A stretch of 64,000 nucleotides of DNA from Alviniconcha marisindica (taxonomy: Eukaryota > Mollusca > Gastropoda > Provannidae). Within the stretch, counting starts at the first letter, position 1. Every line of letters starts with the position of its first letter. The position numbers and the translations under genes are program-made. Where the stretch lies: assembly GCA_018857735.1 (NCBI GenBank), contig JABMCL010001542.1:316001-380000 (forward strand), read 5' to 3'. This document shows, piece after piece, positions 5,331 to 63,386 of this stretch. The notes below the pieces were generated by a model, which saw only the letters and a list, made by a program, of their open reading frames with translations, was not told the origin of the DNA and searched no databases.

Positions 5331-5387
<57 letters not shown>

Positions 5388-7824
5388 TGTCTGTGTTTGT
5401 TTACATGCACTGAGTATTGGCATTAGATGAATATGGTATCGCAAAGAGGAAACTAGTTTGGACACACACAAAGTCCAAGAGATGCTACTGAAATGGGTCC
5501 ACCTTGGTTTGGGCTATGTCACAATGCACTAACACCTGCAAGAACACCATGGCCACATTAAGATGTTTTGAGCTGCATAGTTAAATGGGAACTACCCTCA
5601 GCCATGATAAGCTTGTTGCATAATGGCATATCCACCCTCCAGAAGTGGACATAAATCCTTCAGAGACAGCATGTGGCTGCCCATGTGGCAGGGTAATAAA
5701 ACATTGGTCGCACACTCGATCATCTTCCCCTATGGAATGCATTTGTCAATGTACAAGTATGAATGCCAGGTGACCCCCAGTGTTCAGCTGGGGAACGCAA
5801 CAACTACAGCATGAAATCAGACTGACAGAAATGGAGTATCTTTGTGATCTGCAGGGCTGTCAAACTCCTGGATTCCAGCGCAGGAGGTCTGTCTGGTGAT
5901 ACCTCTGTTCTTCAGAAAATTTTAGACAGCAGACTGAAGAGTTACAATAACATGGCTGCATCACAGCTTAAGGTAAATGGAGTGAACTGTAAAGTGTAAT
6001 AATTATAGTAAATAAGGTGGATTTGTTGTGGACAAATGTAATCAAACAAATCTGAAATGTCACTGGCTCTATCCTCAATTCTGTACCTGCATAATTCTTT
6101 ATAAACAATTTTTGTTTTGTTTTAAATTGAACATTGAAGCTGAGATGGAGGAATGCTAACAGTAATTTTTCTGGCCAGTTTTGACTTTGGCTAGTTAATC
6201 CTTAAACAGCATACAGGGTTTTTTAAGTTCAGTTCAGTAATGTTGTCAAGACATCAGTTTTGAAGACCATGGGTTAGTGTGAAAAGTAGTTAATCTGTAA
6301 GGAGTGTACGTGGTTTGTATTTGTGTTGTCAAGACATCAGTTTTGAAGACCAAGGGATAGCGTGAAAAGTAGCTAGTTAGTCCATAAAGAGTGTACTTGG
6401 TTTGTAGTTGTGTTGTTAAGACATCAGTTTTGAAGACCATGGGATACTGTGAAAAGTAGCTAGTTAATCCGTAAAGTGTACAGGGTTTGTAAGTTTAGTC
6501 ATGGTGTCAAGACATCAGTTTGAAGACCGTGGGATAGTGTGAGTAAGTAAGTAACTTGAAGAGTAGCTAGTTAATCCGTAAAGAGTGTACAGGATTTGTA
6601 TGTTCAGTCCTGGTGTCAAAACATCAAATTTGAAGACCATGGGATAGTGTGAAAAATATGGAGTAAGACTGACTAGGAGTTTGCTTTGTTTGTTTGTTTC
6701 ATGTTAGTCTGTTCTGGTTGTCACACAGGTTGGTGCTATAGATGCTGCCATCCGTTCCTGTGAGGAAGTGCTGCTGTCGCAGCCTGAAAACATCAAGGCT
6801 CTGTACAGGCTGGGCAAGGTACTCGCAGCTGTTAAAACAGTTGATCTTCTGTTGCATTCTGGGACCAGGGGTAGCTCAGTGGTTAGAGTGCCAGACTCGT
6901 GATTGAAAGGTCATGAGTTTGAGTCCCGGCAGGAGAATTTTCTTCTTCGGGTTCAACTTTCTGTGCTGACTCTTATTTCGGTATCCATTCCAACCTGTGT
7001 TACTGCAGTAGCACAGAAAAGGTCCTGGTCATTCTGCCAAAAGTGTAGGTGGCAGGTTACAGCTAAACATGCATGCGTCCTTCGTATGTGGTTTTGCATG
7101 AAGTGATGTGACATGGTGCGTGGTTGTATGGTGTACACAGAATGTGCTGAGATGGCAGCAGCCATGTAACATGCAGACAGCACTGTAAATACACCACCTT
7201 GATGGAAATTCAGAAATGCACTGTAAAAAGCTACAGCCACTCATTTAGAATCACATGCGACAAGAGCACAGTGAGTCTGCTCGAGAGTGGAGAATAGTGC
7301 TCTATAAAAGCATTCAACACCAACAACATGCCAGCATATGTCAGACATTTAGGTCATTGTTGCATTCAGGATTCAGCATGCTGGCCTATGTCAGACATTT
7401 TGGTATTTAGTACATTCGTATGTTGTTTATCATGTCACTGCTAGAATTTGACTTTGTATTTGGGAGGTAATTTTTGTGTGTGTGTATGGTCAGTTTAATT
7501 ACTACATTCTCAATCATCTGTGCACAGTGCACAGTTATTACCATCCATTGTGTAAGTTAGGTTTTCTCCATTGGTGTAGCTGCTCATGTTTTGTTTTGTT
7601 TTTCTCTCAGGCATACAGCTCCAAGGGACAGACAGACAAAGCCATACCATTGCTGAAGAAAGCCATCAAGTTAGACCCAGAATCAAAGGTACAGTGTGTG
7701 TGTGTGTGTGGGTGTGTGGTGTGTGTGTGTGTGTGTGTTAGCTATATCATGTCATCAGCCATACAACAAAGACATAATAGTAGTACTGAAGAAAGCCATC
7801 TCGTTAGACCCAGAGTCAAAGGTA

Positions 7825-7883
<59 letters not shown>

Positions 7884-10800
7884 TTTGTTAGCTATATCGT
7901 GTCATTAGCCATACAACAAAGATATAGTGTGTGTTATGTGTGTATGTATGTTGTGTGTGCATGTATGTATGTGTGTGATGACTGCAAGCATCTGTGGCTT
8001 TTGCATGTGCCTCAGGCTGTTAACAGATGGAGTGCCATAAATCATCTGTTATTATGATTATATTTTACAGGTGTAAGATATACCAGTTATTAGAGTCAGT
8101 ATAGCATGAAATAAGAGAAAGGAAAGGAAACAAATTTTGATGTGGCCCAACCTGTACCATCAAGCTGGGGATCTTTCATTGCTGGGTTGCTTGTTTTGGG
8201 AACCAATACCTCACTTTGGAGAACTTCTGAAATTTCTTTTAACGACCTTGTGACCTTTTTCCACATGCCAAGTGGGCTGTTGCATTTTTGTAAAAATTTG
8301 TTTAGAGGTCTCCACCTCATTGCTGCTGGACACCACCGCAGTGTGTTCCCTCACGTGCATTCACTATTAAAGAGCTACAGTATCTACAGATGTGCACATT
8401 TCGGAATTTTGATGCAGTTCTGTGCAATTTTGGTACAATTCTGTTTTATTTTCGTGTACATTGAAAACATACAATAGTGCAGCATTTGTTAGTGGTGTGA
8501 TCCCAGTGTCTGTAAAGCACAACGACCCAATGTGGTGTGGGTGGGGAGGGATTAACAACAAAATTAATGTGGTTACCAGGTTCTTTATTGTAAAGCCCGT
8601 TCTTAATTGGGCGAATGTTTGTTCGCGAACCTAGTTGGGAGTATGCGGCAAACCTAGTTGATTCTTAATTGGGCGAACTTTTGCTTCATGAACCTAGTTG
8701 GAAGTATTCGTCGAACTGCAATGAAGCTATATTTGGGGTCCAAAAAGCTTTGCTCAATGTGTTCTGGGAACATTCACCCTGTTCGATGAACATTGCCTCT
8801 GATTGGCTGAGAACAGAGCTCTCCTGTGGATGAGGAAGAAATAAAAATGGATGATGGTGTTGCTAGGTTCTTCACTCGCTTCAGAGGGATTTTTTTTATT
8901 TGTTGACTTGTGGGAGGCCCAGCCTTGTCTCAGGGACCCAGAATGAGATAGTATGAATTACCCTGTGAGGGATGATTAAAGTATATTGACTTGACTTGAC
9001 TTTAGCCTACATTTTCGATCATGCTGTCTGCTGTACGTCTGCCACAAGTTCGGGCTGAAGCTTGCATCTCATTACAAGCCAGTTGAGAACGAAGTAAAGT
9101 TCATCAAACTGTCCAAACCATGTTCGGCGAACTAAAAGTTCAATTAAGAAATGAATCATAGTTTGTCGAACTGTCCGAAGTATGTTCGGTGAACAAACAT
9201 TCACCCAGTCAAGAACGGGCTTAAGGGTGACTAATGGCTTAAATTTTGTTTTCTGCTTTTCAGCTGTTGCACCGAGAGCTTGCACTCCTGACACACAAGC
9301 ACAAGAAGGAAGTGGAGTCGGAGAAGACGATGTACAAAAGAATGATGGGAAGCATGGCTGATGCAGCTCAGAATGAGAAGGGCGGGAAGTCTGGCACGAG
9401 TGTACGTCTGCTATTAGAGAGTCATGAAAGTCTCAGCATTACTTGAAACTTTCAAGAGCTCAACCTGGGTATTCATGGATGTAGTTTGTTTTCAACTGGA
9501 CAGTTTTCCACATTACAGTAAACCTTGCAGTGGGCTGACAGTCTGCCTGACAGTCTTTAAGAGTGCTACTTTTGGGACCTCATGATTAGTCTGCTCTCTT
9601 AGTGTGTAAAGTGTGTGATTTCAGTTTCTGACTAACAAACATGCATTCAACAGTCTAAAAAAACACACACAAAAACACACACACACAAAGATTGTGTCTC
9701 AGATAAGGTATTAGTGACAACAAGGCACAGAGGTCAACATTTATGAACAAAACAGTACCCTCTAATCTAACAGGTTAGTTTTTTTACTTTAGAGTCCTGT
9801 CAGCCACATTGGGTCACTTCAGGAGGAATTGCACATTAAAATTTGCAAACATGAGTCACCAAATCGCAAATAAAATGCTGGCTCTCAGTTCTTGCTATAA
9901 CACAATCAACTGCAAACACAACCAAGTCAGTAGGGTCAGTAAAAAGGTATTTACGTTTCATTTAGTTATAACTGACAGTGATATTTTCAGACAAGGTATT
10001 CATGACATATTCAGTGCTCTGTCTTATCTCTGTGACTGTCTTCAACTTACACACCCTCCCATGCTCTCTGCTCTGCTTCTGATAGTCCCAGCCTCCAGAT
10101 TCCTTTTACCAGACTTTCCACTGTTGGTTCCAGTGCCTTTTGTGTCTTTGGCCTCTCTACGTGGAATGACCTCCTCTTTCCTATCTGACAGAAACCCTCT
10201 CTGGACTCCTTCAGATCAAACCTGAAGATGTTTCTTTCCCAAAACAATAAACCCGCCATGTTTTCTGTCCTGTGCTGCTATCTTCCTCTGCCTCAAGTCT
10301 CTGTTTGTTGCTGGTTTAAGTTGTGCGCAAATTAAGTTTTGTATGGTCAGTATGCTTGTGTGTATGAGTGCCTGTGTGAGTGTTTGTACGTGCCTAGAAT
10401 AGTCTCTAGGGACAAGATTTTGCGCTTTATAAATACTTTTGATTATTATTAATGCAAAGTCAAGATACAAGTAAAAATCAGATTCATGTTTGATACACAC
10501 TGTTTACATAATTTTGCATATATGAATATCTTTCACCAGTTGTAAATATTTTGAAGCCAGTTAATAGTGCATGGGTTCCCGACACAGATGAGCAGTGCAG
10601 CTTATTTTATTTGGCATGCCTGCATGGGAACCTATATTAGCCACACCTAATGCAGAAAAAGGGGAGAAAGGATTTGGAACTTGTGACGTTGAATGGGCTG
10701 GGAAAGTAGAAACAAAGAAATTCCTGGCAGAGGGTGGAGCATGCATGGCTATTCCAGGCTTTAAATGGAGAACCTTTGACAACTCGGGGGTGGTGGAGGG

Positions 10801-11696: not shown

Positions 11697-12295
11697 CACT
11701 CTTCACCGGACAGTTGGAGAAAACGTGCAGCTTAATTGATGTCATACAGTGTGTTGGCTTGGGATATGAAGAGTGTGCCAGCTGTTTTCTGATGTTAGCA
11801 GCCATTTTACAAGGGACCAGACTTTCAAGTGTTTGCTCCGGTTGAATTTTATTTCTTTAAAATTATTTCTACATGTTCAAGAGAAATAGCTTGTATGTTT
11901 GGAGTCTCTTGAGAATCATATCTGTGTGTGCTAGTGCATGTACTGATCTTTTTTAAAGCTCTTTTTTTATGAGCTATTCTCCTATAGCAGCTTAAAAACA
12001 CTTGTTACCAGCTTCAAAACCATTAGCTCTGTTATTAATAATGCTATTATTATTATAATTAGACATTTATAATGTGCCTCCACCTGTCAGAGTTTGCAGC
12101 AGCATGAGGCGTGTACAACGGCAGGTAAATCCAACCATACATCTATGGAATAAATGCACACACACATGCACCCATGCACAGACATTTATAATAATGATTA
12201 AGATTTCTTGGAAGGCGCATTTCCCTAAACAACACAGGCTCAGCACAAAGCACCTTACAATACACCCACTCACACATTCAGTAATCCTTGCAGCC

Positions 12296-21057: not shown

Positions 21058-22233
21058 ATGGAGTGTCCTCACTTGGAAGAATGCGCAAGAATATTGGAAC
21101 CAAACTTGCAAACAGAAAATAATCCACAGGAATTCGTCTGCTCAGGTACGTGTTTGACTTGGATATAGACCGTTTTTATCATTTTCGTGAAAATTTATGT
21201 TTTGATTTTTCTATTTAACTGGAAGCGTCTACACACTTTGCTCGTTAATATGTAACCGTCATTTGGGAAATCTGTTCTGCCTGTTCCATGTGGCTTTGTC
21301 AATGTTAGGCGCCGTTTCCCTCGTTTTTCCTGTCGTTGAATAAAGAATCAATGGAATTTTGGTACCCTGCAAGCCAGTGCCAGTCTGGAGGAGGTCAGCA
21401 CACATAATTATCGCAGAATAATGAAATTTGGCCAGACGAACAGCTGCCAACATTGCTGATGTGACCATCCTTATTCTTTTGTTTCGAGTATGACGCAAAG
21501 CTACCCTATGACTGAAGCAGCCAGATAGAAGGAAAGTAAGCCAGATTCAAACATTATATTTACGAGGAAATTCCCTCTGATTTTTTCAGAAAGACTTGTG
21601 TCCTTTTTTTCTGACTTTAAAACGAAAATGGCTGTGTTGTATTTTCAGTGGAATGAAAGCAAAGGGAAGCAAGCGCGCTAAATCTCGCACTGAGCGCGAT
21701 TGTTTCCCTTCGGGCTAGTGCAGAATCGTGCCAATCATTTTATTTTCGTGCCAGCTATGGAATGTTTAGAGAGTCTATGGTTTTGCCATTAGTTCTGTGT
21801 ATTAATGATTGGGAATGTAGTAGGAAACCTGCCTCCTACCCCTAATTTCAAGCCCCGTACTCTCCCCAACCTATCTCGTTCCACAACCCCCGACCCCCTT
21901 CCACCACTTCCTCTGGTCCGCGCACCACTACAATTCGCTCTCAATCTCATTCAGCAAGTCACACCAGTGATAACGTCAGAAACATCAGAATATCGAAGTT
22001 GGACATTTAATGGAAGCAGAAGAGGAAGGCAAAATCGGTTTACTTTGTGCTGTCCAGCATTATCAGGAAGAACGGAAGTTGTCTCAGTTGTCTGTACATT
22101 ACCAGGAAGAACGAAAGCGTATACATTAGTCATTATTAAGAACCAAAGTGTTTCAGTCTGGCTGTAAGCCCCCGTCCTCATTCAACATTTACACCGCTAA
22201 CTGAGGGACTTGGAGGAGAGATCTCATTCACAC

Positions 22234-22295
<62 letters not shown>

Positions 22296-22699
22296 TGACA
22301 TGCACACCCAAACACACATGCATACACATTGTATGCATGGCAGCATGTACACACCATTTATCACTACAGTTGCCATAGGTGCTTTGTTGCCTGTTGGTGG
22401 TCATTTTTTTAAATATTTTTTATTAAACAGTTTTGCATTAAACTAATTTAAAGTATCCAATGTTAGTTGTTTCTGCAGAACTATATTACAAGACTTAGAC
22501 TAGAGTCCTTCACAGCATATTTGAATATGTCTTTTATTTTATTCTGTTGCAGTTTGTAACACAGAAAAGAGTCCTTGGATATGCCTACAGTGTGGAGTTG
22601 TTAACTGTGGAAGGTATCCTTCAGAATTCAATTCATTAACTTTATAGATATATTCATCCCACAAGTGACAATTCTGTCAGACAGACTGGATAGCTATTG

Positions 22700-22746
<47 letters not shown>

Positions 22747-24853
22747 ATTGTTATATATATATATTGGTAATGAACTATGACATAACTGAAAATAATACCA
22801 AAATCTGAAACAGAACAAGGCCCAGAGTGCTCATGCAGAATCAACACACAATGGAGTTAATTAGTTCTCGAAAGTCATCACACAAGCACAGCAACAAAGA
22901 CCTGAGTCACCTACAGTAACTCATACCTGGCATTCGTGGTGCTTGTGTGTCAACTTTTGAGTGCTAATTAACTCCCTTGTGTGTTGAAAATAATGCCGTT
23001 TACATGACTTAAGAATATGCAAGGTCTTCAGATGACACTCTTACTGGAGACTCGCTTGATTTCGCACTAATGGCAGTCAGGAACAGGGTACTGGATAGTC
23101 TTAATCTTATGGACTAGCCACTACTGACTGTGTGCCCACCTGTATTGCCTTCGTCTGTCACAGTTGACTGCCCATGTGAGACTCGGACAGGCCTACAAAC
23201 CCCAGTGCATGTTTTGCAGTCCTGACCCCTATACAGCAAAGCACAGACACAGCACTGGCCTCAAGGAACCATGCTTGCAGACAGATCTGTCTAAAGATGG
23301 TCTAGTACTAGTAGAAACAAGCACCAGCTTAATCAATACCATCAAGCTATAGAGTGGATGCCTGAGGACAATTGTGAAATGCTGAAGAGCAGCAACACAC
23401 TTATCAGTATCTTCACCCACAAAATTTGTTTTGTGCTAATGCTGACTCAGATTTGGAAGGCCTCTTGGGGCTTGAAAGTTGAATCCATCTCTGTTTTATC
23501 TGGAAATTCAAAAGCTTAGGCCATTTACATGTTCTGTCTCAAAATAAATCACAGGGACATTTTAGAAACCAACAGGACATGTATGATCATGTTGTCAGTT
23601 CTGAAATATAAGTGGTTAAAATTTAATATGCATTATTCTTTTTCTTCTGGGTAATGCAGGTACAGAAAACCAGTCTCACATGGTCATGTTGTATGGTCTT
23701 ATACATAGTTATACTGCAACAAAATACACAGTTTAGCTCAAGCCTGCATTATTGATTCTTGAAGGGTTTGTAGGTAACTGTGTGTGTGTGTGTGTGTGTG
23801 TGTTTAAAATGTTGCATTGTGATCATTTAAAACGACATTACTAATTTAGTATATAATTAAACTTTTAGATTAGGGAAAAGTGCAAACTGATGCAGTATAC
23901 ATCATTAAAATGTTGATTAACACTAATCTTTTACTACGCTTTTCTCGTCCAAGATTCAACAAATTTACAGGCAGCAGGGCACACTGTCACCACTTCAGTA
24001 AAGTGACATCAGTAATTCAAGCAATTCAAGTGGACTTGCAGGAACACCAATCCTCTAAATCGCAGGACCATTGCCTCCGTAAACACTGGCATGTTACTTA
24101 CCCACAGGCAACTTAGAAAGCACAGGTTTGTTGCCTGAAAAGTGACAGTGACAGTGAAACTGTAGCCTACTGGACAAGGGTGTTGGGTAACAGCAGTTGC
24201 CCACCCCTGTATGGTCACTTGTTACTGGCCATCCAATCTATGTTCTACACTTATGATTTCAAACAAAGAATCATAATTCATATCATGACCTCGCTCCCAG
24301 ACTCCCAAAATTATGCTTGCATTACCCTGGCAGCTGCTTACTGCTTTTTTGTTTTCTTCTGTGACATCATATTTGCTGGGAAAATGAACATGTCGGATGG
24401 TGGACCTGTGTAATATCTTTTGAGGGGAAGTATTTTCCAATGAGTTGACATAAATTTATAAAGCAACATTTATGCCTGTCAGTGTCACATTTGTGCTGTG
24501 ATTGTGAAGTAGGATTTAATTATTTTTTTTTTAATCAAATGAACATGGCATATATTTGTAAACATTGCCTTCGTTGACCGACTGGGCAAAACAATTGTTT
24601 GGACATCATGACAATTAGTGAAAAAGTTTGGGATGTTTTGAAGACATGTCATCAGTCCAGTGACCAGTGACTGATGCTCTTAATCTTATGATTCATGAAT
24701 CCCTGCCACCATCACATGTGGCAGCAGCATACGTATCTGTATTGTAAGGTCTGTTTATCCTGGCAAAGCATTGGCAAGAGCCTGGTCACTCCCAGTGACA
24801 CAAACCTCTGATGAAATGCCAAGTGAATGACAGGCAGCCTGTAACTTGCCATG

Positions 24854-24895
<42 letters not shown>

Positions 24896-27800
24896 CTGCA
24901 TGTGTGTGTGTGTGTGCGCCTGCATCTGTGTGTGTGTGTGTGTGTGCGCGCCTACATGTGTGTGTGTGTGTGTGTGTGTGTGCGTGCGTGCATGCAAATG
25001 CCAGGAATTCAGACTAAAAAAACATGGCCAGCTGCATGTTGTCACAAGCAGGGAGTGCAAAGCATGGTGTAAGAGCTGCTTAAGTCATGTTTCTGTTACA
25101 GTGTTAGTGTTTGTTACATGTGATTGTGAGGAAGCAGGACAGTTTTATGATGGACCCAGCCACTTTGTCTTGAAATTGTTCCTCTTTACAAATACAGTGA
25201 GATCCTTCACCAGCCAGATGAATTAAAAGTAAAATTGATTATCTGTCCTGAAAAGTTGGTAGTAACAATAATAATAAAGCGGCTTTCTAGAGTGCTCGTC
25301 TACCGCACAAGGTGGGAGCACAGGGCGCTTTGCAATAACACTAACAACACACACACACTCATGTGTCAGGCATGGGGATAGGCACAGCTGTGAAAAACAG
25401 TTTAGAAATACTCAAATAGTTATTATAATATCAAACGGGTGCACGTTTCATTTGATCTCCACAACAGTTTTCTCCAAGGCAGTACATGGTATTGGTGCTG
25501 AAGTGAGTGTGTGTTTTTCATGCTAGCTGGTGGAATGATATTGATACAATTGTGTAGTGGACAGAATCTTGGTTTCTGGAACTCTGTTTAATTCAGCACT
25601 TCATTGCACTTCTAGCAATGCTGTCACCACACATTGGGGAACAAAAAGAAAATGTGTGTGACAACTTCATAACAAAAACAAAGAAAATGTGTGTGACAAC
25701 TTCATTTAGTTTAACTTTGAGCCCTTCATATATATATATATATATATATATATAGTAGTACACTGCCTAATTCCAAGCAGTGGTTTACAAGGATGCAGGA
25801 TACGACACCCTTTCTCCAACCACTGTCGTAATTGGTTGTGCCATAGGCATAGGTCTCTGAAAACACTCAGCTAACTGACACTTTTTGACAGATTTTCGTT
25901 GGTGTTGGCATTAACTGATTATTTGTAACAGATAGCACAAATGATATGAGGCGTTTCTTTTTTCATCACCTACATTGTGTATGCCAGTGCAAATAAAATC
26001 AAATTCATTTGAATCAATGAACAAATCATTCACTCAGGGCGGACGTGCCTCATGTTTACATGCATGCTTTGTTACTACGTTACTTTCACACTCACAGTCT
26101 TGTTACCATATTATTAGTACCCGAACCTTTCGGAGGGTGCTGACAGCGTTGGCGGGGCAGATACGGGGAGATAACGAGTCTTCAGTGGCACAACCAATTT
26201 TGTCAGAGTTTGGAGGATGGTGCCGGAAAGCAAGGCTTGGAGTGTGGTATGCTGCTAATGTTGGTCATAGTAGTACATCCATGATTTTATTTGTATGCAA
26301 TGAATATAACAAAAATGAAAGTTTAAAACATTCTTATGTCCATGCTGGCCAAATGTAGGTTTTTTGGCTGCACATTTAGATTTGAAGCACACTAGCTGCA
26401 CATTTAGATTTGTTAAAGCACACTAAGTGACCAATATAATAACACTGTTAATAGTAGTAATTTGGTTTTGTTCATGCAGGTATGTGGATGCTCATGCCAA
26501 AAAACATTTTGAAGAGACAGAGAAGCATGATGTGTGTATGGATTGTCACAACTACATGGCATTCTGGTGAGTGCTGTTTACTGCTAAAACATCATACATG
26601 TACCAGAACTACCATTCTGCTGGACAGACAGTGCAAAAAACAAAATGGTTTTGTGATCAGTATAATGTGCAATTTGAGAAGCACATGACATTTTGTTGTT
26701 ATTGATGTGATCCTGTACTTCTGTATTTCTTCTTTTTTATGAATTTATAATGACAATGTGGGAATTTAGATGTTTAATGTGTGTTGGCAGAACTTGCACA
26801 TATAGGCCTGGAGAAACCACAAGTAATATTACATTTGCAAAGGCACTGCTGTCAGGTTTAATACTCTTAACCTTTTTGTATTATAATGTTTCATTTCCTA
26901 GTTTCACTTTCAGCCACATTACTGTAGTGTTAGCCAAGTGCCATAAATTCTGAGGAAGGATAGATCTAGTCACCTGAGAAAGTCTGCCTGTCTGCTTTCT
27001 TTTAATTTTATGCAGTGGGTTTATCAGGTTACATTGCTTTGTAACTGACAATGGATTTTGTTTCTTTTCCACAGTTACACGTGTGACGAGTTTGTTATCA
27101 ATGACACAGCGGCAGGGCACTTAGAGAAGTTGCGAAAATCCCTGAACTCGTTCTCCTGCTTGGCACAGAAATCTCAGAGGTTGGTGCTCCGCTGTTGAGG
27201 TTTCACCTGCTGACCCAACCCTAGGACTGGCATTTTGTTGATTTTGGTCTTGTGATGTGTGCCCAGATGGCTTGTCCAGAATAACAGTCTGGAGACTCAG
27301 ACTGCCAGAGATTTTGTGTTTTTGTTCTGTTTTAATACAGGGAGCGGGAAATTCTGTCTCTCTCTTGCACCCTTGTTAGTTTATGAGTAGTATGCATGTA
27401 TATTATAAAAATAAACAGAAATAAACTCTTAGAACTGCAAAATAAAATCAGATTTTCTGGATCAGATTTTGGAGCAAGAATATTGGACCTGCTGATGGAG
27501 CATCAAGGATTAGGTGTGCAAAGAATGAATAAGTGTACATGAATTGTGTCCTAGGTATACAGGTATACTACTTGTGTCCAAAGTTAATCATGTTATGAGC
27601 TAATGAGGTGACCCTGTGTAGGTGACGGGATGTTAATATTTAGTTACTGACCGAAGTTAATCTTGTTCTCCCCCTACCTCCATACCCCCACCACCCTGTG
27701 TTTCTCCCTGTCCCTAATAAGCCTTATGGTTTCTGTGGACATTAAGCGCCATGCTTACTTACTTTAAGTTAATCTTGTTTTTTAAACACATAGATTTAAA

Positions 27801-28319
27801 CTCTGTTCTTTTTGTCATCCTTCTGGTTTAGTCCACAAAAGAGGAGGGGGAAAAGACGGAGACGAACTTCAGCAGATTCTTCAGAAAATGACAGGAAGAG
27901 AAGAAAAAAGGTGCGTCCTGGTGGTTTGAAAAGTTGATTGTAAAGTGTCATGCTGTTTATACATACATGCACACATTCACAGTCATGAGTCACACGCATG
28001 CACTCATGCATGTACACATGAAAAATGATCTTGTGTTTAAATTTTCAGCATTTTTCTCTTCTTCTTTTTTCTTTCTTTTTTGAACAGTTGAAGCCCGTAG
28101 GGCGGAATGTTTACAAGATTTTTTGTGGGCTAAAACTGGTGAAAGAAAATTTTGTATGCACACATGTGCATGTTTTGCTATTAGAGTTTTAGTATTGTTT
28201 TCTGAAATTTGTTTTCATTTTCTTTTATGCTACAGTTTGAGATTTTCACAGTAAAGAAAATGAAGTCTGAATTGATTTGAACATTTGAAGAAAATGCTAC
28301 CTTTACAACATGTTTGTAG

Positions 28320-28389
<70 letters not shown>

Positions 28390-28950
28390 TGAGATGTGTG
28401 TTTCTGTGGGCCTTTGTAAATAATTTTTGAATTCAGTATACATTACCATGTCTCACAAATGCAAGATCCAGATGGACTTGCTACATGTGTCTGAAATTGT
28501 TGGATAAGACTATTAATAATTATGATGTAATTTACATGGAAATATGAAGGGGTAGTTTGAGGAAGAGTGGTCTCAAAAGAGGGTCAGTCTCATGTTGGGA
28601 GGGGTCTACTGTACAGTCACTCAGCTCCTGTCCATTACTTCCAGGAAGAGAAGAAGCTGTTGCGTCCCCCAAGAACACCTGGCTTACGTAACCTTGGAAA
28701 CACATGCTTCATGAATGCTGTTCTTCAGTCACTCAGGTAGAATTGCCAGGTGGAAGGCAGCCATGCATGGGTAGTTTATGATGGTCTCTTCTCCTTTTTT
28801 CCCCCCCTCTTGTTTTTGATGTGTAACTGTGTATGACTGCTTGATTTGATTTCATGTAATGAACTGTGTGCTCCAATGGGAGTATTAGCATATGTAAAGA
28901 AGACATCATTATTATGATTATTTTTTCTTCCTGCCTCTCTCCTCTTTGAT

Positions 28951-28990
<40 letters not shown>

Positions 28991-31900
28991 TCTCTCTCCC
29001 TCCCTCCCTCCCTCTCTCTCTGTAGTTTGATATAGCATACCTGGATTAATTGAAAAAGCATTTAAAAAAACAATCAGTGCTCTCTCTTTTTGTGTGTCTT
29101 TATGCATGCCTGTCATTATGCATACTACATAGTGCTCAGTGAAAATATTATGCTTGTGTTGAGATGTTCTGACCTAATTGATTTGAGCTCATTTATGAGG
29201 AGTCACACTTGCAGCTGTCATAAATTAACATCAGTAATGTGACAACTTTTGTGTGGGTCTCTCAAATGAGGTTTGATTCTGGTGTTTAAAAAAAAGAAGT
29301 TCTTCAGTCTTCATTATCCCTTAGGTCGCCTTACCTGGGTAGGGTTACAGCAGCTGCAAGAGCAGCGCTGCCCAGCTTACAATGTGTGTAATATTTTCAT
29401 GTGTCCAAACAATGATATAGCTGTCAGCGTTTGGGATTTTTAACATGTGCACATATTTTTTTATGTGTGCAATTGGCAGGGGAGCTGCACCAAACACTGT
29501 CACAGGGTCTGCACTGAAATTTGGACTTGGGAGAAAATCCCTTGTTGCACTCTGGAATCAAACCCACATCGATCGGTATTGCACCTGGCTTTTCAGTCTG
29601 ATGCTGTCCCAATATTAAATAGCTGACCCTTTGTTTGCTGTGTGTGTCCATTCAGCAACATCCAGCACTTCTGTGGCTACATCAAGCAGCTTCCATCGCT
29701 GGAGGACAAAGCTGTCAAGATCAAACGATACAATCACACGAAAAAGACTCGAGACCTTGGAGAGGACACGTAAGTAAACGCCCAGAAGGAGGTAATTGTG
29801 CTTGCTGATGAGACATGGGCAACGAATGATGTATACCAGAACAGGGGCCTTAGTTGCACACAGTAACTTGTCATCTGAGAAAGTTACGGTAAATAATAAA
29901 TAAAAGAGTTATTTTGACACATACTGCCATAGCCCTGAGGAAAACAACAACAACAGCAACCCAAAGCAAAATAACAACACTTGATCTGAATACATAAGAT
30001 CCCTCCACCCCTACCCCCACCCCCAACTTTCTATCTCTTGCTGTGTTTCACTCAGTTCATCACCCACCCTGACCCTCTCAATTTGTATAATACACACAAG
30101 ATTTGATGCTCAAAGCCTGTGTGCATCTACACACACACACTCACACTCACTCACATACTCACTCACACACTCACTCACTCACTCACCTACTCACTCACTC
30201 ACTCACACATCCACATATCCACACACACACAACACACAGTGCAATAAAAGTCACCACCTGAGGTAAGTAGTAACTTGACACTTAACACTCGGACAGCCAT
30301 GCCTGACATACCAGAGCAAAGCAAAAGTTTTAAAAAAGGAGAAAAAGAACTATGACTAAAATGAAACTGTTTTTGTTGTGCAATGTATATAGGCTTACCT
30401 GTAAAATGGTGTACACCCATATGACCATGCTGGACATACCAGAGCGAAGTAAAAGGTTAAAAAAGAAAGAAAGAAAAAAGTAATAAAATGACTAAAATTT
30501 TAAAAATCTTGTTGAACAAGGTAGGCTGATGATTGTGTAAAATGATGTACACCCAGACAACCGTGCTTGACATACCAGAGGAAAATGCACATTAAAGAAA
30601 AGAAACATGACTAAAATGAAATTGTCCGTGTTGCGCGAGGTAGGCTGACGTGTAGAATGGTTGTTGCAGCCTTGTGGTGGAGGAGCTGCGGAAGATCTTG
30701 GTGGCGCTGTGGCAAGGCAACAAGACGGCCATCTCTCCAGAGTCTCTCTTTAGCGTCATCTGGAAAGTGGTCCCGCGCTTCAGGTACAAGGCATCTTCAT
30801 CTAAGCCACAGCCTTTGTGGTCTCTTCTGTCTCTCTCCCCCACCCCACCCTCTCCTCCCCTTCTCGTTTTTGTGTGTGTTCTGTTTTTCTTTACCTTCCC
30901 TTTTCTACTTACCCCCTGCATTTTTGTCTCTTTCCTCCCCCCCCCCCCCCCCCCATCTCTCTCTCAATCTCTTCATCCTGAGTGACCCTATACAGTTGAC
31001 AGGATGTTATTAAAGTCCAGTTACTGTTTCATGGTAACTAACTTTAATGGTAAGAATATTATTCAGTGATATGAGCACACTTTAATGTTATGGGGGGGGG
31101 GGGGGGGGGGGGGGGGGGTCAGACTTGGCATGTAAGCCTGTTTGCTGAAATCCCAGATGGGTCATGATGCAGCTTCAAAGGGCTGGTAGTGGTACTTGCA
31201 ACCAGTATGGACCGTACTGGAGCCTTTGGTAGTTCATTGATGACTGTGTTGTTGGTGCTGCAGGGGGTACCGTACCGGAGCCTTTGGTAGTTCATTGATG
31301 ACTGTGTTGTTGGTGCTGCAGGGGCTACCGTACCAGAACCTTTGGTAGTTTATTGATGAGTGTGTTGTTGGTGCTGCAGGGGGTACCATACCGGAGCCTT
31401 TGGTAGTTTATTGATGACTGTGTTGTTGGTGTTGCAGGGGGTACCGTACCAGAGCCTTTGGTAGTTTATTGATGAGTGTGTTGTTGGTGCTGCAGGGGTA
31501 CCATACCGGAGCCTTTGGTAGTTTATTGATGACTGTGTTGTTGGTGCTGCAGGGGGTACTGTACCAGAGCCTTTGGTAGTTTATTGATGACTGTGTTGTT
31601 GGTGCTGCAGCGGGTACCGTACCGGAGCCTTTGGTAGTTTATTGATGACTGTGTTGTTGGTGCTGCAGGGGGTACCAGCAGCAGGATGCCCATGAGTTCA
31701 TGCGCTATCTCTTGGATCGCATGCACTCCGAGCTGCTGCAGTTACTGCCCTACCCCACCTCCAACTCCCAGTTCATCACGCAGAAGAGCACCTCCACCAT
31801 CGTTACGGCCATCTTTGGGGGACTTCTGCAGAACGAGGTCAACTGCCTCATCTGCGGCATGGAGTCCAAGAAGCATGACCCCTTCCTCGGTGAGTAGGTC

Positions 31901-32565
31901 AGGTAGCACGTGGGTGAGTAGGTCAGGTAGTGCTTGGGTGAGTAGGTCGGGTAGCTCATGGGTGAGTAGGTCAGGTAGTACCTGGGTGAGTAGGTCAGGT
32001 AGTGCACAGGTGTGTAGGTCAGGTAGCATGTGGGTGAGGTCAGTAGCACATGGTAAGTCAGGTATTGTGTGGGTAAGTCAGGTAGTACATGGGTGAGTAA
32101 GTCAGGTAGTGCACAGGTGAGTAGGTCAGTAGTGCGTGAGTCAGTAGGTCAGGTAGCGCCTTGGTGAGTAGGTCAGGTAGCACCTGGGTGAAGGCTGTTG
32201 TGTATTTATGATAAAGTCTGATTTAGAGCTACTGAATACTTATGAAACGAAGAGGAGGTTCAGAGTGAAGGCATTGTTTTTGACAAGCTATTATGATGCA
32301 TTCATTCTTAGCCTCTGATGTGTTGTGAGCTTTTGTTTTCCAATTGTTGGCAGTCATTAAAAAGAAAATCTTCATAGCGAATTTCAGTATTTTTATAAAG
32401 AAAAACCGTGAGTGATAATTCAAAGTTGCAAACACAACAGATACACAAATTTTGGAAAGGAAAACTACATACTCCAAGATTTGTGTATTGCAAGTATGAG
32501 AGAGTTAAGTAGCATGAATGCACAAGAAAATTGGCCTGTTTTAGCATAGGTTATGATTCACCCAG

Positions 32566-32642
<77 letters not shown>

Positions 32643-32771
32643 CACACACACACACAGTCACACACACAACACAGTCACACACACAACACAGTCACACACA
32701 CACAACACAGTTACACACACACGTACAGACAGACACACACACACACAGTCACACACACACACACACAACAG

Positions 32772-32810
<39 letters not shown>

Positions 32811-34855
32811 CAGAGGCAGTCACACACAAACATGCACTGTTACACACACACAAACTCTCTCTCTCTCCTCACTGGCTGAAGTCATTCACAGACTTGCGAA
32901 CACACACATTCTCTCTCTGAGAGTCTAATCCCTTCTGTCCGTGGTTTGATTTCTTCTTAGACATGGTTATTACCCCATATACTGTGTTGCAGATCTGTCG
33001 CTAGATATACCAAGTCAGTTTGCAGTCCGTCAGAAGCCAAAGGAAGGGGACCCTGTGTGTACTCTTTCTGGTAAGCTGATTGTGTATGCCAATTCTCTGT
33101 TATGACCTAGAAGATGTATTTGTCTTTGTCCCGGATTTTTTCTTTTCTCCTCAAGGTGTACTTTAAATACTGGAAATAATTTTTTGAAGTGTACTAAAGT
33201 TTCTAGTCATTGTTGTGTCTTGTTTAATTTTTGTGTGTCATTGATAGAATTAGAAGAAAGGAATTGATTATTACTTGATTGATGTCCCACATACAACAAG
33301 GAACACAAGAACAGAGACCTGCATCACTGACAGTAACTATCTAGCATTTCCAGGAAATACAAGCTAAGTAAAAGCCACCAAGGTCACATCCTCAGAAAAG
33401 GATGTTCCCCTATGGCACATGGTTATTCCCTCTGTTTCAAACACATGCTGCCACACAGGTGTGTAGCGTTATAGGGACATGTGCAAGTTTTATTCAGGAT
33501 CAGTCCTAGTCTGTTGATCTGGAAATTTGTGCAGTGTGTGTGTTTTTGTGTAGAATATATTTCAGTTTTTTCGTCCTGGTGAGATCAAAATACTTGGCTT
33601 CAAAAGCAAGATTTGCTCTCAGGATACAAATGCAAATCTTTTCTGGCAGAGCGGGGAACAAAACCTGATGTACTTGGGGGAAGAGTTGTGACAAGCTCCT
33701 TCAGTTTGTTGCAAACCTAACTAAACACAAACCAGACCTAACCTTGCAAACCAAACCTAAACCTCAGGCCATCTGGGACTTTGAGCAAAGTCAGGTAAAT
33801 TTGAATCGTGGCCAGACTGTTAAGTCCATTTGCAAAACCTGTTGTTTGTCAGAGCTCAGGAGCTGTGTGAAAATTGAGGTGGACGTCCTGTCAGAGCTCA
33901 GGAGCTGTGTGAAAATCGAGGTGGACGTCCTGTCAGAGCTCAGGAGCTGTGTGAAAATCAAGGTGGACATCCTGTCAGAGCTCAGGAGCTGTGTGAAAAT
34001 CAAGGTGGACGTCCTATCAGAGCTCAAGAGCTGTGTGAAAATCGAGGTGGACATCCTGTCAGAGCTCAGGAGCTGTGTGAAAATCGAGGTGGACATCCTG
34101 TCAGAGCTCAGGAGCTGTGTGAAAATCAAGGTGGACATCCTGTCGGAGCTCAGGAGCTGTGTGAAAATTGAGGTGGACGTCCTGTCAGAGCTCAGGAGCT
34201 GTGTGAAAATCAAGGTGGACGTCCTGTCAGAGCTCAGGAGCTGTGTGAAAATCGAGGTGGAAGTCCTGGGCTCCCTGTCCCTAATAGTCCTTAGGGTCTC
34301 TGTGGACGTAAAGCAGCGTTGAATTTGAACTTGTTGTTTATGCATTGGCAATGGGATTGTTTATAAGCAGGTGTCTAGTGCCCATCACTGCACAGTATTT
34401 GCCTAATACTGTAGAGCGTGAGTACCCAGCCATGGCCCCATCTTCTGCATCAGAACGTTGTGCAGCACCTGCACATGGGTGCTGTTGGCAGAAAATTAAT
34501 TCATTTTGTAGTGTTTGTTATTTTAAATTGGGCTTTGATCTCTGCATTAATCTAATTTACGGTGTGTGTGTTTGTTCATGTGTGGTGTGTGTGTATGTGT
34601 GTGTGGGTGTATGTGTGCAGACTGCCTGCACAGTTTCACAGATATAGAAGAGCTGGAGGAGTCGGAGCTGTATATGTGCAGTAGCTGCAAAAAGCGACAG
34701 CGCTCCACCAAGAAGTTCTGGATCCGGCGCCTGCCCAATGTAAGTCCACACTTGCTCTGGCTTCACTGCCACGCCATTAAATTAACAAATACGCTACAAC
34801 ACTTCATTCTGCATCTTTCTCATCACTTCCAACATGTGCACACACACACGTGCTT

Positions 34856-34896
<41 letters not shown>

Positions 34897-37800
34897 CCTT
34901 TTGTGACAGCAAAAGAAAACATACTGGTAAAATGTAATTTATACTAATTATAGACAAACAAGAGATGCGGTGTGCTTGTACAGGTTATGGAGCTGTTGCA
35001 GTCATCCCCATGCTCTCTTTTGCGCTTTGTGCAGGTTATGGAGCTGTTGCAGTCAGCCCCACACTCTGTTGCGCTTTGTCCAGGTTATGGAGCTGTTGCA
35101 GTCAGCTTCATGCTCTCTGTTGCGCTATGTGCAGGTTATGGAGCTGTTGCAATCAGCCCCACACTCTCTGTTGCGCTTTGTGCAGGTTCTATGTTTACAT
35201 ATTAAGCGGTTTCGCTGGAGCACATACTGCCGCTTGAAGCTGGAGACCTTCGTGGAGTTCCCGCTGCAGGGGCTGGACATGAACTGCTACGTCCTCAACA
35301 ACCTGCACGAGACACGGGGCAGCGGAGCTGGCAGTAACTTGTACGATCTGGCTGCCGTCGTTGTGCATCACGGGTCAGGGTGAGTCGGCGATGGTAGCGT
35401 TTTGTAACTCCTGCTTGACGTCTGTTATTATGGGGTTAGTAGCAATGACTGAAAAGGAGAAAAAAATCTGAAATAAGAATGACTGCTGGCATTCTAAAAC
35501 AAGACCCAGACTCTTAAAAGGTTCAAACAAATTCTGTTTATTATGACTAGATGTGGCATGTTGTGTTTTGTCCCAATAAATAGTGTCTTTTGAACCTTTT
35601 GTGTATGCAGTGTCTATGATTTGTTGTTGTTGCCAATCATGAGACTTCAGGAGCGTGCCGGTAGTATTTGTAACTCCTCTTTGACACCTGTTGTGAAGGG
35701 GTCAGCAGCAGCCTCTATGATTTGTTGTACATCACGAGCCTTGTTGGGGAGCTTGACAGTAGTATTTGTAACTCCTCGACATCTGTTGTGAAGGGATCAG
35801 CAGCAGATGATTCATTGTTGTCCATTATGAGCCTTGTCAGGGAGCATAGCGGTAGTATTTGTAACTCCTCCTTGACATCTGTTGTGAATGGAACAGCAGC
35901 AACCTCTATGATTTATTGTACATCACGAGCCTTGATGGGGAGCTTGATAGTAGTATTTGTAACTCCTCCTTGACATCTGTTGTGAAGGGATCAGCAGCAT
36001 ATGATTTGTGGTTGGCCATCATGAACCTTGTCAGGGAGCATAGCGGTAGTATTTGTAACTCCTCCTTGACATCTGTTGTGAATGGATCAGCAGCATATGA
36101 TTTGTTGTTGGCCATCATGAACCTTGTTGGGGAGCATAGCGGTAGTATTTGTAACTCCTCCTTGACATCTGTTGTGAATGGATCAGCAGCATATGATTTG
36201 TTGGCCATCATGAACCTTGTTGGGGAGCATAGCGGTAGTATTTGTAACTCCTCCTTGACATCTGCTGTGAAGGGATCAGCAGCATATGATTTGTTGTTGG
36301 CCATCATGAACCTTGTTGGGGAGCACAGCGGTAGTATTTGTAACTCCTCCTTGACATCTGTTGTGAAGGGATCAGCAGCAGATGATTTGTTATTGGGGAG
36401 TGTTGTGGTAGTATTTGTAACTCTTCCTTGACATCTGTTGTTAAGGGATCAGCAGCAGATAACTTTGTTGTTGCTATATGTCATGGTGTACTGTTGCCAG
36501 CAGAATGCTATGGGCAGCAGCGTGAGCCATATTCATTTTAATGTTCCGTTAATTGTGGTGACAGAGTCTTAGGACAGCATCCATAAACCCCAGCCTTTGA
36601 AGATAAAGCGGCAAAGGTGAGCCTGTGAAAAGTTGAACTGGAGTTAATGTCTGTGTGGCCTTAATCTGGGCCGGACTGGCTGCCTGTAAAAAGCTGAACC
36701 GGAGTTAACGTCTGTGTGGCCTTACCTGGGCCGACTGGTGCCTAAAGTGACCGGATTACGTCTGTGTGGCCTTACCTGGGCCGACTGCTGCCGAAGCTGC
36801 CGAGAAGCTGGGGTTACGCTGGGCCGACTGGCTGCCTGTGAACGGGTTAATCTGTGTGGTTACGCTGGCCGACTGGCTGCCTGTGAAGGAGTTAACGTCT
36901 GTGCCTCCGCTGGCCGACTGGCTGCCGAAGCTGAACCGAGTTAACGTCTGTGTGGCACTGGGCCGACTGGCTGCCTGCAAAGCTGAACCGAGTTAACTCT
37001 GTGTGGCCTTACCTGGGCCGACTGGCTGCCTGCAAACTGACCGAGTTACGTCTGTGGGCTTCCGCTGGGCCGACTGGCTGCCTGAAAGCTGAACCGGATT
37101 ACTCTGTGTGGCCTTACCGCTGGGCGATGCTGCCTGAAGCTGAACCGGAGTTACTCTGTGTGGCCTTACCGCTGGCCGACTGGCTGCTGAAGCTGACAGA
37201 ACTCCCCCGCTGGGACCGGCAGACTGGCTGCCTGGAAAAGCTGAACCGGAGTTAACGTCTGTGTGGCCTTACCGCTGGGCCGGACTGGCTGCCTGTGAAA
37301 AAGCTGAACCGGAGTTAACGTCTGTGTGGCCTTACCGCTGGGCCGGACTGGCTGCCTGTAAAAAGCTGAACCGGAGTTAACGTCTGTGTGGCCTTACCGC
37401 TGGGCCGGACTGGCTGCCTGTAAAAAGCTGAACCGGAGTTAACGTCTGTGTGGCCTTACCGCTGGGCCGGACTGGCTGCCTGTAAAAAGCTGAACCGGAG
37501 TTAACGTCTGTGTGGCCTTACCGCTGGGCCAGACTGGCTGCCTGCTAAAAAGCTGAACCGGAGTTAACGTCTGTGTGGCCTTACCGCTGGGCCAGACTGG
37601 CTGCCTGCAAAAGCTGAACCGGAGTTAACGTCTGTGTGGCCTTACCGCTGGGCCAGACTGGCTGCCTGTAAAAAGCTGAACCGGAGTTAACGTCTGTGTG
37701 GCCTTACCGCTGGGCCGGACTGGCTGCCTGTAAAAGCTGAACCGGAGTTAACGTCTGTGTGGCCTTACCGCTGGGCCGACTGGCTGCCTGTAAAAAGCTG

Positions 37801-59494: not shown

Positions 59495-62400
59495 CTAGCT
59501 GTGAGACTCCTTGCGGATGGAGGCTATGATCTGCTCGTGGAGTTCGTACAAGTCCGTGATCTTGGACCCCAGCGCCTCCTGAAGAGTGAGAACTTCCCTG
59601 GACTCTGACTCTCGGCCGGCACGGGTGTCCTGCAGCTGTCGCTGAAGGTCCTGCACTTTGACCGACAGGCTGTGATTCTCTTCCTCTAGGTCCTGCAAGG
59701 ATGGATGGAATGCAGTAAAGATAACTGTGCAACATTTTACCAGCATGTATGTTGACAGTCAGGCTGTAATTCTCTTCCTCTAGAATGCTGCAACGATTAA
59801 GAATGATGTAAACGGGTGACCAGTCTGTGCTTTGACTGACAGGCTGTGAATCTCCTCCTCTAGGTCCTGCAAGGATGGATGGAATGCAATATATGTAATG
59901 TATGACCAGCATTCACTTTGACTACTGGGCTGTGATCCTTTTTCTCTAGGTCCTGCAAGGACGGATGGAATGCAATATGTAATGTATGACCAGCGTTCAC
60001 TTTGACTACTGGGCTGTGATTCTTTTTCTCTAAGTCCTGCAAGGATGGATGGAATGCAATATGTAATGTATGACCAGTGTGCACTCTGACAGACAGGCTG
60101 TGAATCTCCTCCTCCAGGTCCTGCAAGGTTGGATGGAACGCAGTAAAGATAAATGCGCAATGTTTGACCAGAGTGCACTTTGATCAACATGCTGTGATTC
60201 TCTTCCACTAGGTCCTGCAAGGACGGATGGAATGTGGTAAAGAAAAATGTGTAATGTTTGACCAAGCATGCACTTTGACTGGCAGGCTGTGAACCTCTTC
60301 TCCAAATCCTGCAAGGACAGACAGAATGTGGTAAAGAAAAACGTGAAATGAATGACCAAGCATGGACTTTGACCGACAGGCCATGAACCTCTTCATCTAA
60401 GTCCTGCAAAGACAGATGGAATGTGGCAAAGAAAAACGTGTAAAATTTGACCAAGCGTGCACTTTGACTGACAGGCTGTGATTCTCTGCCTCTAGGTCCT
60501 GCAGTAAAGATAAATGTGTAATGTACGACCAGCAAGCACTTTGAACAACAGACTGTGATTCTCTTCCTCAGAAAGAGTAGTCTACGCTCTATCACAAACT
60601 CACAGAAAAGTAAAAGATGCAGGTCTACACTCTGACCATCACAAACTCTGACCGACAGCTATATATGGTGCTCTCTGCAAGGGCTACACAGAAAGAGTAG
60701 TCTACGCTCTATCACAAACTCACAGAAAAGTAAAAGATGCAGGTCTACACTCTGACCATCACAAACTCTGACCAACAGCCATATGGTGCTCTCTGCAAGG
60801 GCTACACAGAAAGAGTAGGTTTACAACGTCAACAACCACACTGTAACCAGTGTACAACAACAAACCAAAGTGCTTCACCTGAATTCGCCTCTGAAGTGCG
60901 GGCAGCTGTGCATCTCGTAATGAGGAATCCTCCAGTTGTTTACTGAGCTGGGCAATCTCCTGAAACATCAACACAGATTTGTCCATCAGCTCGCTGGCTT
61001 GACCATCGAGTGAATAAGATGAGGAGTATGTGGTGAACTGGTCTGGCAGAGTGGTAAGGTGCTTTTTACAACTGAATATTTTTAATCTTCATTAATCCCT
61101 TGCCGTAAACTTGGGTCACCTTACCTGGGTAAGGCTACAGCATCCACAAGAGCAGCGCTACCCGTTCCTATCCGTGTGTGCAGTATTTTTGTATGGCCAA
61201 ACAATGGTAGGGGTGCCAGTGTTTGGGATTTTTAACCCATTCGCTGCCCCCAGGACGTCATATGATGTCACTGTTTTCCATCGAAGAGTTCCTGATTGAC
61301 TATTTTAAGTTTTCGCATACTCTCACACCATACAAAGTTCCCCAAACGCTAAGTTTGATCTGCTCAGCCTTTTCTGGAGAGACTGATCTTGGGAGGAAAC
61401 GGCACTGGTAATACAGTTTATTGGCAGTGAAAAGGTTAATGAGCACACAATGTTGATGCATGCGATTGCACACAGCCAGGGCTGTACAAACATGGTAAGA
61501 CAGCCTGCACTGAAAACTGACCCTGGGAGAAAAAAATCCGTCACACCAGGAATCAAACTTCCATCAGTATTGCACCTGGCTTTTCAACTTTGATGCTCTA
61601 CCAGCAGCGCTATCCCTGCACTGAAAAGTGATCCTGGGAGAGAAAAAATCCCTTGTCACACCAGGGAATCAAACCTCCATCAGTATTGCACCTGGCTTTT
61701 CAACTTTGATGCTCAACCAGCAGCACTATCCCATCCCCTGTTGCTTAGCTGTTGAAAGCATGCAGACAAGACTCATGTTCACCTCCACTTCAGATGGCTT
61801 TAGTCTTGCAAAGCTGTATGTGATTTAGGACTGAACTCTGTGCAGTTAATGAAACAGCCAAATGGTTAACATCCCTTGCCTATCTTCATGCAGAATTACT
61901 TGGTAGCAGTACAGCATTACATTTAGGCCGCCTCTCACCCAGTCTTTAAGGATGCTGGCTTCTACCCAGACTGCTACGGAGACCGCTTTTGTGTTAAAGC
62001 ATTAAAGGGGATCACGAGTGAAGATACAAGCTGGCCTAAAAATGTTGAAAATGTGCACAGGTTTCCACTGGCAGGTTTCCCCCAGTTATTCTGTTAATAT
62101 TTATGCAACAGAAATACTTTCTGGCTTCAGGTTTGGTTCACTCTTTATCAACCAGCAGCAGAAAAAGGTTGGCTCACAGTGCAATGCACATGAGGTCATG
62201 CAAGCCAGAGACCTCCTCATGATGCCACAGACTTGATCAAAATGGCACTGACCATGGCTGTCCTTTCATGACTTTCAAACATTTTTTTTTTAGAAACTGG
62301 ACCACAAACCAACTGAAATAACTGCTGTGACTGCTTTTTATTGCATTCCAGTGGACAGAACCAATGATGCTTCATCTAGTGTCCCCTTTAAGCAAGTCCA

Positions 62401-63386
62401 ACAAAAGAAAGACATGCACAGAAAGCACAAAATGGCGGCAGTTCATCACCAGAACAGAAATACTTTCTGACTTCAGATTTCTTCACATAAAGAAAATGAA
62501 AGAGAAGAGTTTAAAGGGAAGAAAAAAAGCAAAGACTGTTTCCAAAAAACAAACAAACAAACAAAAAAATGCCAGCATTCCAAAACAAAATCAGAACACA
62601 CAATAATGTTGAAAAGCTGAGCATTCTTTTCAACATTTTTGTGTGATGTCTTATTCTAATCACGTGCATGTTTTGTATTGTCTGATTAAAATAAGGATTC
62701 TTTTTGAACATTTTTGGTGTCATCTGCAAACTCTGCCTGAATTAAAGTAAACACACAAAAGATTTTTTTGCAAAGAATGCTCATTTTAGTCAGCTCATAC
62801 AAAACATGTACATGCGATTAGAATAAGTGTTCTTTTTAACCTTTTGTGTGTTTTGACAGTCACTGGAAAATGCAAGCAACCACATGTCTGGCTTACAAAA
62901 GGTCAATGGTCTACACCTTCACCCTCCAACCCACTCACTTACCATCTCTTCCAGTGCTGGCTCATGCAACTAACATTCATCATGCAAAAACTAAAAGTGT
63001 CCCCCTCAGAGAATAATTATCAGTTTACGTAGGACGGTGGTTCAGCTGAGCACTGAGACGCAACGGACCTGCAACTGCATCAGGGAAAAGAGCCGGGTTT
63101 CCCTCGGTCTACACCATCACCCTCTAACCCACTAACTTACCATTTCTTCCAGCACTGGCTCATGCAACTAACACTGATCATGCAAAAACTAAAAGTGTCC
63201 CCCTCAGAGAATATGTAGTTTACGTAGGACGGCGGTTTAACTGAGCCTCAAGCAGCAACGGACCTGCAACTGCGAGTTGTTGTCTTGCCGCAGACGTAAG
63301 GCTTCCTCGTTCAGGGAGTGCAACTCCTGCTGCAACAACTGAGAGTTGGCATCAGCCGCACCCCCTTCCTGCTCTTTCTCCGCCGC
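59495..63386 (-). CDS. Unidentified coiled-coil protein, C-terminal exons
   Basis: Three phase-0 exons on the minus strand: 63386-63264 (41 codons), 60959-60879 (27 codons) and 59692-59495 (65 codons plus stop). The joined protein is a continuous heptad-rich helix: QLLQQELHSLNEEALRLRQD, then EIAQLSKQLEDSSLRDAQLP and ALQRRIQ, then DLEEENHSLSVKVQDLQRQL. It ends GSKITDLYELHEQIIASIRK and ESHS. Each exon has an AG acceptor and GT donor where expected (TTGCAG/gtccgt, ATTCAG/gtgaag). Upstream exons lie beyond 64000. I do not recognise the family; it is probably a dimerising scaffold or cytoskeletal/trafficking adaptor. An extra exon between 61000 and 63200 cannot be excluded. The acceptor of the last exon and the donor of the first are both duplicated in tandem. 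Confidence 0.72.
59693..60510 (-). repeat. Array of about nine units spanning the last-exon acceptor
   Basis: On the minus strand the unit holds CATTCCATCCATCCTTGCAG, then the exon-like start GACCTAGAGGAAGAGAATCA, CAGCCTGTCGGTCAAAGTG and a CTGGTCATACATT-type spacer. Decoy acceptors lie near 59863, 59951, 60036, 60119, 60213, 60307, 60402 and 60498; the true one is at 59692. Unit length is 85-95 bp. Each unit contains about the first 42 bases of the coding exon, so most decoys would splice to a DLEEE-like start. Confidence 0.9.
60569..60822 (+). repeat. Two-copy 120-bp tandem repeat
   Basis: CAGAAAGAGTAGTCTACGCT to GGGCTACA repeats at 60569 and 60689 with few changes, and a third start (CAGAAAGAGTAGG) follows at 60809. 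Confidence 0.9.
61087..61620 (-). mobile_element. tRNA-headed SINE (family 3), copy 2, with insertion
   Basis: It matches 29314-29615 at both ends: CACCTTACCTGGGTAAGGCT, and GTATTGCACCTGGCTTTTCA. On the minus strand the head has a CTGCTGGTAGAGCATC A-box-like and a GAAGTTTGATTCCTGG B-box-like block. It is interrupted at 61236-61435 by a TTAA-flanked element. Confidence 0.75.
61236..61435. mobile_element. 200-bp piggyBac-like MITE nested in a SINE
   Basis: Flanked on both sides by TTAA (61232-61235 and 61436-61439). Ends are inverted: CCCATTCGCTGCC on the left, and GGCAGTGAAAAGG on the right (reverse CCTTTTCACTGCC). The uninterrupted SINE copy at 29314 has a single TTTTTAACATGT at the same place, which shows the empty site. 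There is no transposase, so it was moved in trans. Confidence 0.82.
61621..61735 (-). repeat. Tandem copy of the SINE family 3 head
   Basis: GATCCTGGGAGAGAAAAAAT to GATGCTCAACCAGCAGCACT repeats the last 110 bp of the neighbouring SINE directly next to it. Confidence 0.8.
62002..62391. mobile_element. TTAA-flanked non-autonomous transposon, copy 3
   Basis: Starts TTAAAGGGGATCACGAGTGA and ends CTAGTGTCCCCTTTAA, giving inverted AGGGGA ends inside TTAA on both sides. The GAAGATACAAGCTGG segment is the inverse of CAGCTTGTGTCTTC near the right end of 43111-43850, so this copy lies in the opposite orientation. Confidence 0.72.
62905..63290 (-). repeat. Two-copy repeat spanning the donor of the 41-codon exon
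   Basis: The segment from GGTCTACACC(T/A)TCACCCTC through GTGTCCCCCTCAGAGAAT, TTTACGTAGGACGG and GCAACGGACCTGCAACTGC occurs at 62908-63084 and again at 63108-63276. On the minus strand both copies end an exon-like CAGTTGCAG/gtccgttgc. Only the one at 63264 belongs to the open exon. Confidence 0.85.

Follow-up and report, generated by a model that had tools for sequence, protein, structure and literature searches.

Splice-site minisatellites on both sides of exon 9 of a snail USP3 gene are probably neutral arrays tolerated by splicing

Minisatellites that multiply a donor (5' splice site) have reportedly been in print since a 1995 paper on human IFI6 (6-16), whose minisatellite we take to start near the end of exon 2 and to consist of 26 copies of a 12-nt unit; we know of no array of acceptors (3' splice sites) on that same IFI6 exon. 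Intron 7 of human F7 contains 37-bp repeats, and normal splicing there is reported to use the donor of the first repeat alone (PMC6627357). In the potato RdRp gene, a tandem duplication is reported to span an intron-exon boundary, taking in the acceptor and part of the exon, and to be present in two copies (PMC4974935). Here we analyse a 64,000-nt stretch of the gastropod Alviniconcha marisindica (assembly GCA_018857735.1, contig JABMCL010001542.1, positions 316,001 to 380,000 of the forward strand; hereafter the window), in which coding exon 9 of a USP3 gene is preceded by a tandem array of acceptors and followed by a tandem array of donors. We consider it quite probable that neutral minisatellites have overrun these splice junctions and that splicing tolerates them by way of the exon-proximal sites.

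The USP3 gene is intact and lies on the + strand, its 14 coding exons within 21058-39509 joining into a coding sequence of 521 codons plus a stop. The product matches Pfam UCH at 4.8e-65, its top-scoring solved structures are other USPs (e.g. USP4), and over the catalytic part the identity is 92% with USP3 of Babylonia areolata, 91% with that of Littorina saxatilis and of Nucella lapillus, and 88% with that of Pomacea canaliculata, values that most likely mark the gene as coming from a caenogastropod. The Cys box (GNTCF) starts at residue 158, the His box (GSGHYTSYA) at residue 453. Alignment with nine mollusc USP3 proteins reveals no insertion at either junction of exon 9 or at the acceptor of exon 12. 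Given an intact gene and this ungapped match, the exon-proximal sites would be needed to make the conserved protein. The features around exon 9 are as follows.

31211..31676, + strand: acceptor minisatellite with a 58-bp unit and eight acceptors, AG ends at 31263, 31321, 31379, 31437, 31495, 31552, 31610 and 31668 (the true acceptor)
31669..31889, + strand: USP3 coding exon 9, 221 nt, in an intact joined coding sequence; the encoded peptide ends KKHDPFL
31889..32191, + strand: donor minisatellite with a unit of about 24 bp, 13 unit starts and a partial unit; GT of the true donor at 31890
31895..31897, + strand: in-frame TAG soon after the true donor, included with any later donor
32117..32122, + strand: strongest decoy donor, CAG/GTGAGT, in unit 11, score 8.47

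At 31889-32191 Tandem Repeats Finder detects an array of 13.2 copies of a 24-bp unit, with unit consensus GGTGAGTAGGTCAGGTAGCACATG. The first base of this array is the last base of exon 9, and it thus begins at the true donor, as an earlier note made from the sequence alone had stated. That note had also described about twelve tandem donors in 24-bp units, each opening with GTGAGT or GTAAGT. The array is real, but it divides into 13 full unit starts and a 9-bp remnant; its regularity is only partial, since 8 of the 13 units measure 24 bp and the remaining five 19, 20, 20, 20 and 27 bp; and GTRAGT stands at the start of 11 units rather than of every one, the GTAAGT of units 8 and 9 being due to a short internal deletion. 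Donors were scored with a human 5' splice-site matrix. On this scale 12 of the 13 units hold a GT scoring at least 3.4, the exception being unit 12, where a C precedes the GT, and 11 of the 62 GT sites scoring at least 4 on the whole 64-kb + strand fall within 31889-32195. Of the 15 GGTRAGT motifs that the window has on its + strand, 10 likewise fall in the array, and the local density of this motif and of donors is far beyond chance. The unit carries a donor consensus and the array begins where a coding exon ends, at its true donor; in both respects it matches splice-donor minisatellites of the IFI6 and F7 type. The true donor itself, TCG/GTGAGT, scores 4.79 and is surpassed by units 6, 8, 9, 11 and 13, although by unit 9 only barely (4.80).

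The acceptor array claimed for the upstream side of the exon is likewise present, and its eight acceptors follow one another at steps of 58 bp, with one step of 57, the last being the true site. The acceptor tracts contain 53-59% pyrimidines, and in every unit a TTGAT begins some 27 nt ahead of the splice point, a motif that could serve as a branch site. The 32 nt preceding the true acceptor recur without change in two of the seven decoys and with one or two different bases in the other five; the site itself therefore does not distinguish the true acceptor.

The choice of site would affect the protein. When splicing was simulated with the true acceptor, codon 323 was the first stop for every one of the 12 later donors, and it arises from the TAG at 31895-31897. 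Both the position of this TAG, a few bases past the first donor in the native frame, and the resulting truncation of USP3 between its two catalytic halves, that is, between the Cys and His boxes, had been correctly anticipated. All seven upstream acceptors combined with the true donor led to a stop at codon 258, 275 or 294, and skipping of exon 9 to a stop at codon 273. Among the 8 x 13 site pairs the full-length protein is expected from the exon-proximal pair only, an expectation that rests on these 19 simulated single changes and not on all pairs. As the stop reached with later donors lies at least 448 nt upstream of the last exon junction, nonsense-mediated decay of such transcripts would be expected.

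The neutral origin is favoured because the donor core shows no extra conservation and because junctions are not enriched in arrays. Measured against the consensus, the GTGAGT columns of the donor units differ (by mismatch or gap) in 13 of 78 cells, or 16.7%, compared with 14.5% for the other columns, and GTGAGT ranks 16th of 24 circular windows for conservation; the better-conserved part of the unit is the AGGTCAGGTAG block, with a difference of 4.9%. Special conservation of the donor motif between units is therefore rejected, which is the first half of what the earlier note had named as refuting its reading, and there is no sign of selection on the decoy donors. When all eight units of the acceptor array are compared, 20 of 464 cells deviate; the last 20 columns account for 3 of these (among 160 cells) and TGCAG for none, differences so few that they are uninformative on conservation either way.

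Enrichment of arrays at splice junctions was suspected after further arrays had been seen at exon 12 and in a neighbouring gene, and it too was rejected. The comparison used 45 junctions (USP3 contributes 26, an FKBP8-like gene 14 and a coiled-coil gene 5), placed by eye from reading frames and GT/AG; the set holds coding exons only, with no untranslated-region exons, and its FKBP8-like part is incomplete, some FKBP-domain exons being absent. Local tandem duplications cover 6 of these 45 junctions (13%) versus 1201 of 4708 sampled intronic positions (25.5%) under the same test, in a comparison that represents one 64-kb window with a few large arrays. At a threshold of 18 the same 6 of 45 stand against 21.1% of 3000 random noncoding positions; once low-complexity positions are removed, the background is 733 of 4000 noncoding positions, or 508 of 1895 when these are taken from genic noncoding sequence. 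On a shuffled control the duplication detector responded in 0 of 1000 cases. Circular shifts, which keep the clumping of the arrays, give 11.5 junctions expected, with P = 0.08 for at most 6 and P = 0.97 for at least 6, while treating junctions as independent yields a nominal depletion (P ~0.025 at threshold 18). Under independent shifts, about 1.3 of 20 internal exons would be expected to have arrays on both sides, and the probability of at least one is 0.68. The earlier note's argument, that chance could hardly have given a single exon an array at either end, therefore fails for exon 9.

If neutral minisatellites did overrun the junctions, segments spanning them would first have been duplicated in tandem, and slippage or unequal exchange would later have raised their number, with the extra copies falling on the intron side, each bringing a copy of the splice site. 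Such an array would persist because splicing normally still takes the exon-proximal donor and acceptor, presumably the sole sites that adjoin the true exon and its enhancers, in keeping with exon definition. Occasional use of a decoy would produce stop-containing transcripts that nonsense-mediated decay would be expected to remove. The counts suggest that in a minisatellite-rich genome junctions are overrun about as often as ordinary intron, or less, and at such a rate splicing must tolerate many decoys.

Several observations weigh against this explanation. The decoy at 32117 (8.47) far outscores the true donor (4.79), so that exon-proximal use is not obvious from strength. GTRAGT opens 11 of the 13 units, a higher number than the column count alone would lead one to expect; units 8 and 9, which align ambiguously, both still spell GTAAGT, and this places functional retention above that count. 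In human IFI6, two downstream repeat units of the minisatellite are reported to be used as donors (PMC4526556). Finally, the duplicated exonic stretch is no longer than 10 nt in four of the six junction cases in the window, perhaps a hint that the junction is favoured.

Alternatively, the arrays could be functional, with many U1 and U2AF sites strengthening the definition of a weak exon and copy number tuning the inclusion of exon 9. The middling score of the true donor and the 59% pyrimidines of the true acceptor tract are consistent with such a need, as is the retention of a GT scoring at least 3.4 in nearly every unit (12 of 13). However, the donor core is not preferentially conserved and junctions are not enriched in arrays, and the acceptor tracts of exons 8 and 11 are weaker still (41% pyrimidines) and carry no junction-spanning copy. 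We therefore regard functional arrays as improbable. A regulated switch, in which downstream donors or upstream acceptors add a stop and lower USP3 through decay, would make sense of the early stop that follows from each of the 12 later donors and 7 upstream acceptors, and of a decoy donor stronger than the true one. Yet stops in intronic sequence are predicted by chance alone and the decoys bear no mark of selection, and such a switch seems unlikely. Much the same doubt applies to a repeat-number rheostat on USP3, in which the copy numbers of the two arrays would set the choice of the productive pair among 8 acceptors and 13 donors and so act via unproductive splicing; we hold this to be a long shot.

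Junction-spanning copies are not confined to exon 9, which also favours the neutral explanation. Tandem copies were found at six splice junctions in three genes, two of them being two-copy duplications. The gene upstream of USP3 on the same strand, at 2400-11700, we take to be FKBP8-like from its TPR-like exons and C-terminal VLKWSLLAGGTVAAVVSVGVAYYRATH. The junctions other than those of exon 9 are listed here.

34976..35188, + strand: second USP3 acceptor array, before exon 12, unit of about 51 bp, five acceptors with AG ends at 34983, 35034, 35083, 35134 and 35185 (the true acceptor)
59651..60570, - strand: acceptor array at the last exon of a coiled-coil gene, nine decoys and the true acceptor (AG ends 59693), spaced 79-95 bp, most copies including some 40 nt of exon-like sequence
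7611..7823, + strand: exon end and donor (GT 7689) of the FKBP8-like gene, with a second copy of exon tail and donor 133 nt downstream (GT 7822)
63067..63264, - strand: donor of another exon of the coiled-coil gene (GT 63263); 195 nt downstream lies a copy (GT 63068) that shares 10 nt of exon

These six junctions, together with the short exonic stretches in four of them, would fit a mutational process that is linked to splice sites, such as to the GGTRAG motif or to R-loops, and seeds arrays there. Such a process is nevertheless very unlikely to be the explanation, as duplications are fewer at junctions than in introns at large. Least credible of all is an assembly artefact, for while the number of copies given for a tandem array often cannot be relied on and read misassembly might in principle create copies, substitutions and small indels set the units here apart, and the window contains arrays with many different periods.

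Some of these arrays show features of their own. At exon 12, the two nearest decoys would add 51 or 102 nt in frame and without a stop, placing 17 or 34 residues between RRLPN and VLCLHIKRF, and the two more distant decoys lead to an early stop. In the last-exon array of the coiled-coil gene (59740-60500, - strand), most units contain an acceptor whose tract is rich in pyrimidines, some 40 nt resembling exon, and a GGTCA or GGTAA; the last of these could be a weak donor, and tandem mini-exons are conceivable. A 92-residue piece of this gene matched no Pfam family at its cut-off among the best 25 matches listed. Introns of USP3 contain further arrays. A 96-bp array in intron 12 (35380-36473) has what by eye appears to be a diverged partial copy beginning about 13 nt past the exon 12 donor, and arrays with units of about 62 bp and up to about 23 copies occupy most of the final 2 kb of the same intron (36621-38625). 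A 42-bp array of 10 copies in intron 10 (33847-34268) is open in one frame because its unit is a multiple of 3, and is probably intronic. No structured RNAs or tRNAs were reported in the window, the tRNA program having been run with the bacterial code.

Whatever its origin, exon 9 offers a natural test of site choice among near-identical competitors on both sides of a conserved exon, in which the exon-proximal pair is apparently the sole maker of full-length protein while the true donor is not the strongest. Splice-site arrays of this kind can also mislead gene prediction. In searches of open-licence literature we did not find a case in which a single exon has a long array at either end; no matching paper turned up there for acceptor arrays, and, judging by the titles listed, nothing on point for minisatellites and splicing in molluscs or gastropods, which in neither case proves absence. 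The closest described systems each resemble one side of the exon. IFI6 carries a donor minisatellite of the same type as the array after exon 9. F7 shares with it a donor-bearing tandem repeat at an exon end, and supports the idea of tolerated decoys with the first donor used (PMC6627357). It differs in gene, unit length and lineage, and its copy number is variable; no acceptor array is reported for it in the passage on these repeats, whereas one is present at the snail exon. Potato RdRp resembles the snail acceptor arrays in having a duplication that spans an acceptor, and differs in having two copies and a new intron backed by RNA reads (PMC4974935), in contrast to up to 10 acceptors known from sequence in the snail. 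Donor minisatellites are thus already known, from human IFI6 and F7, and so is acceptor-spanning duplication, from potato RdRp.
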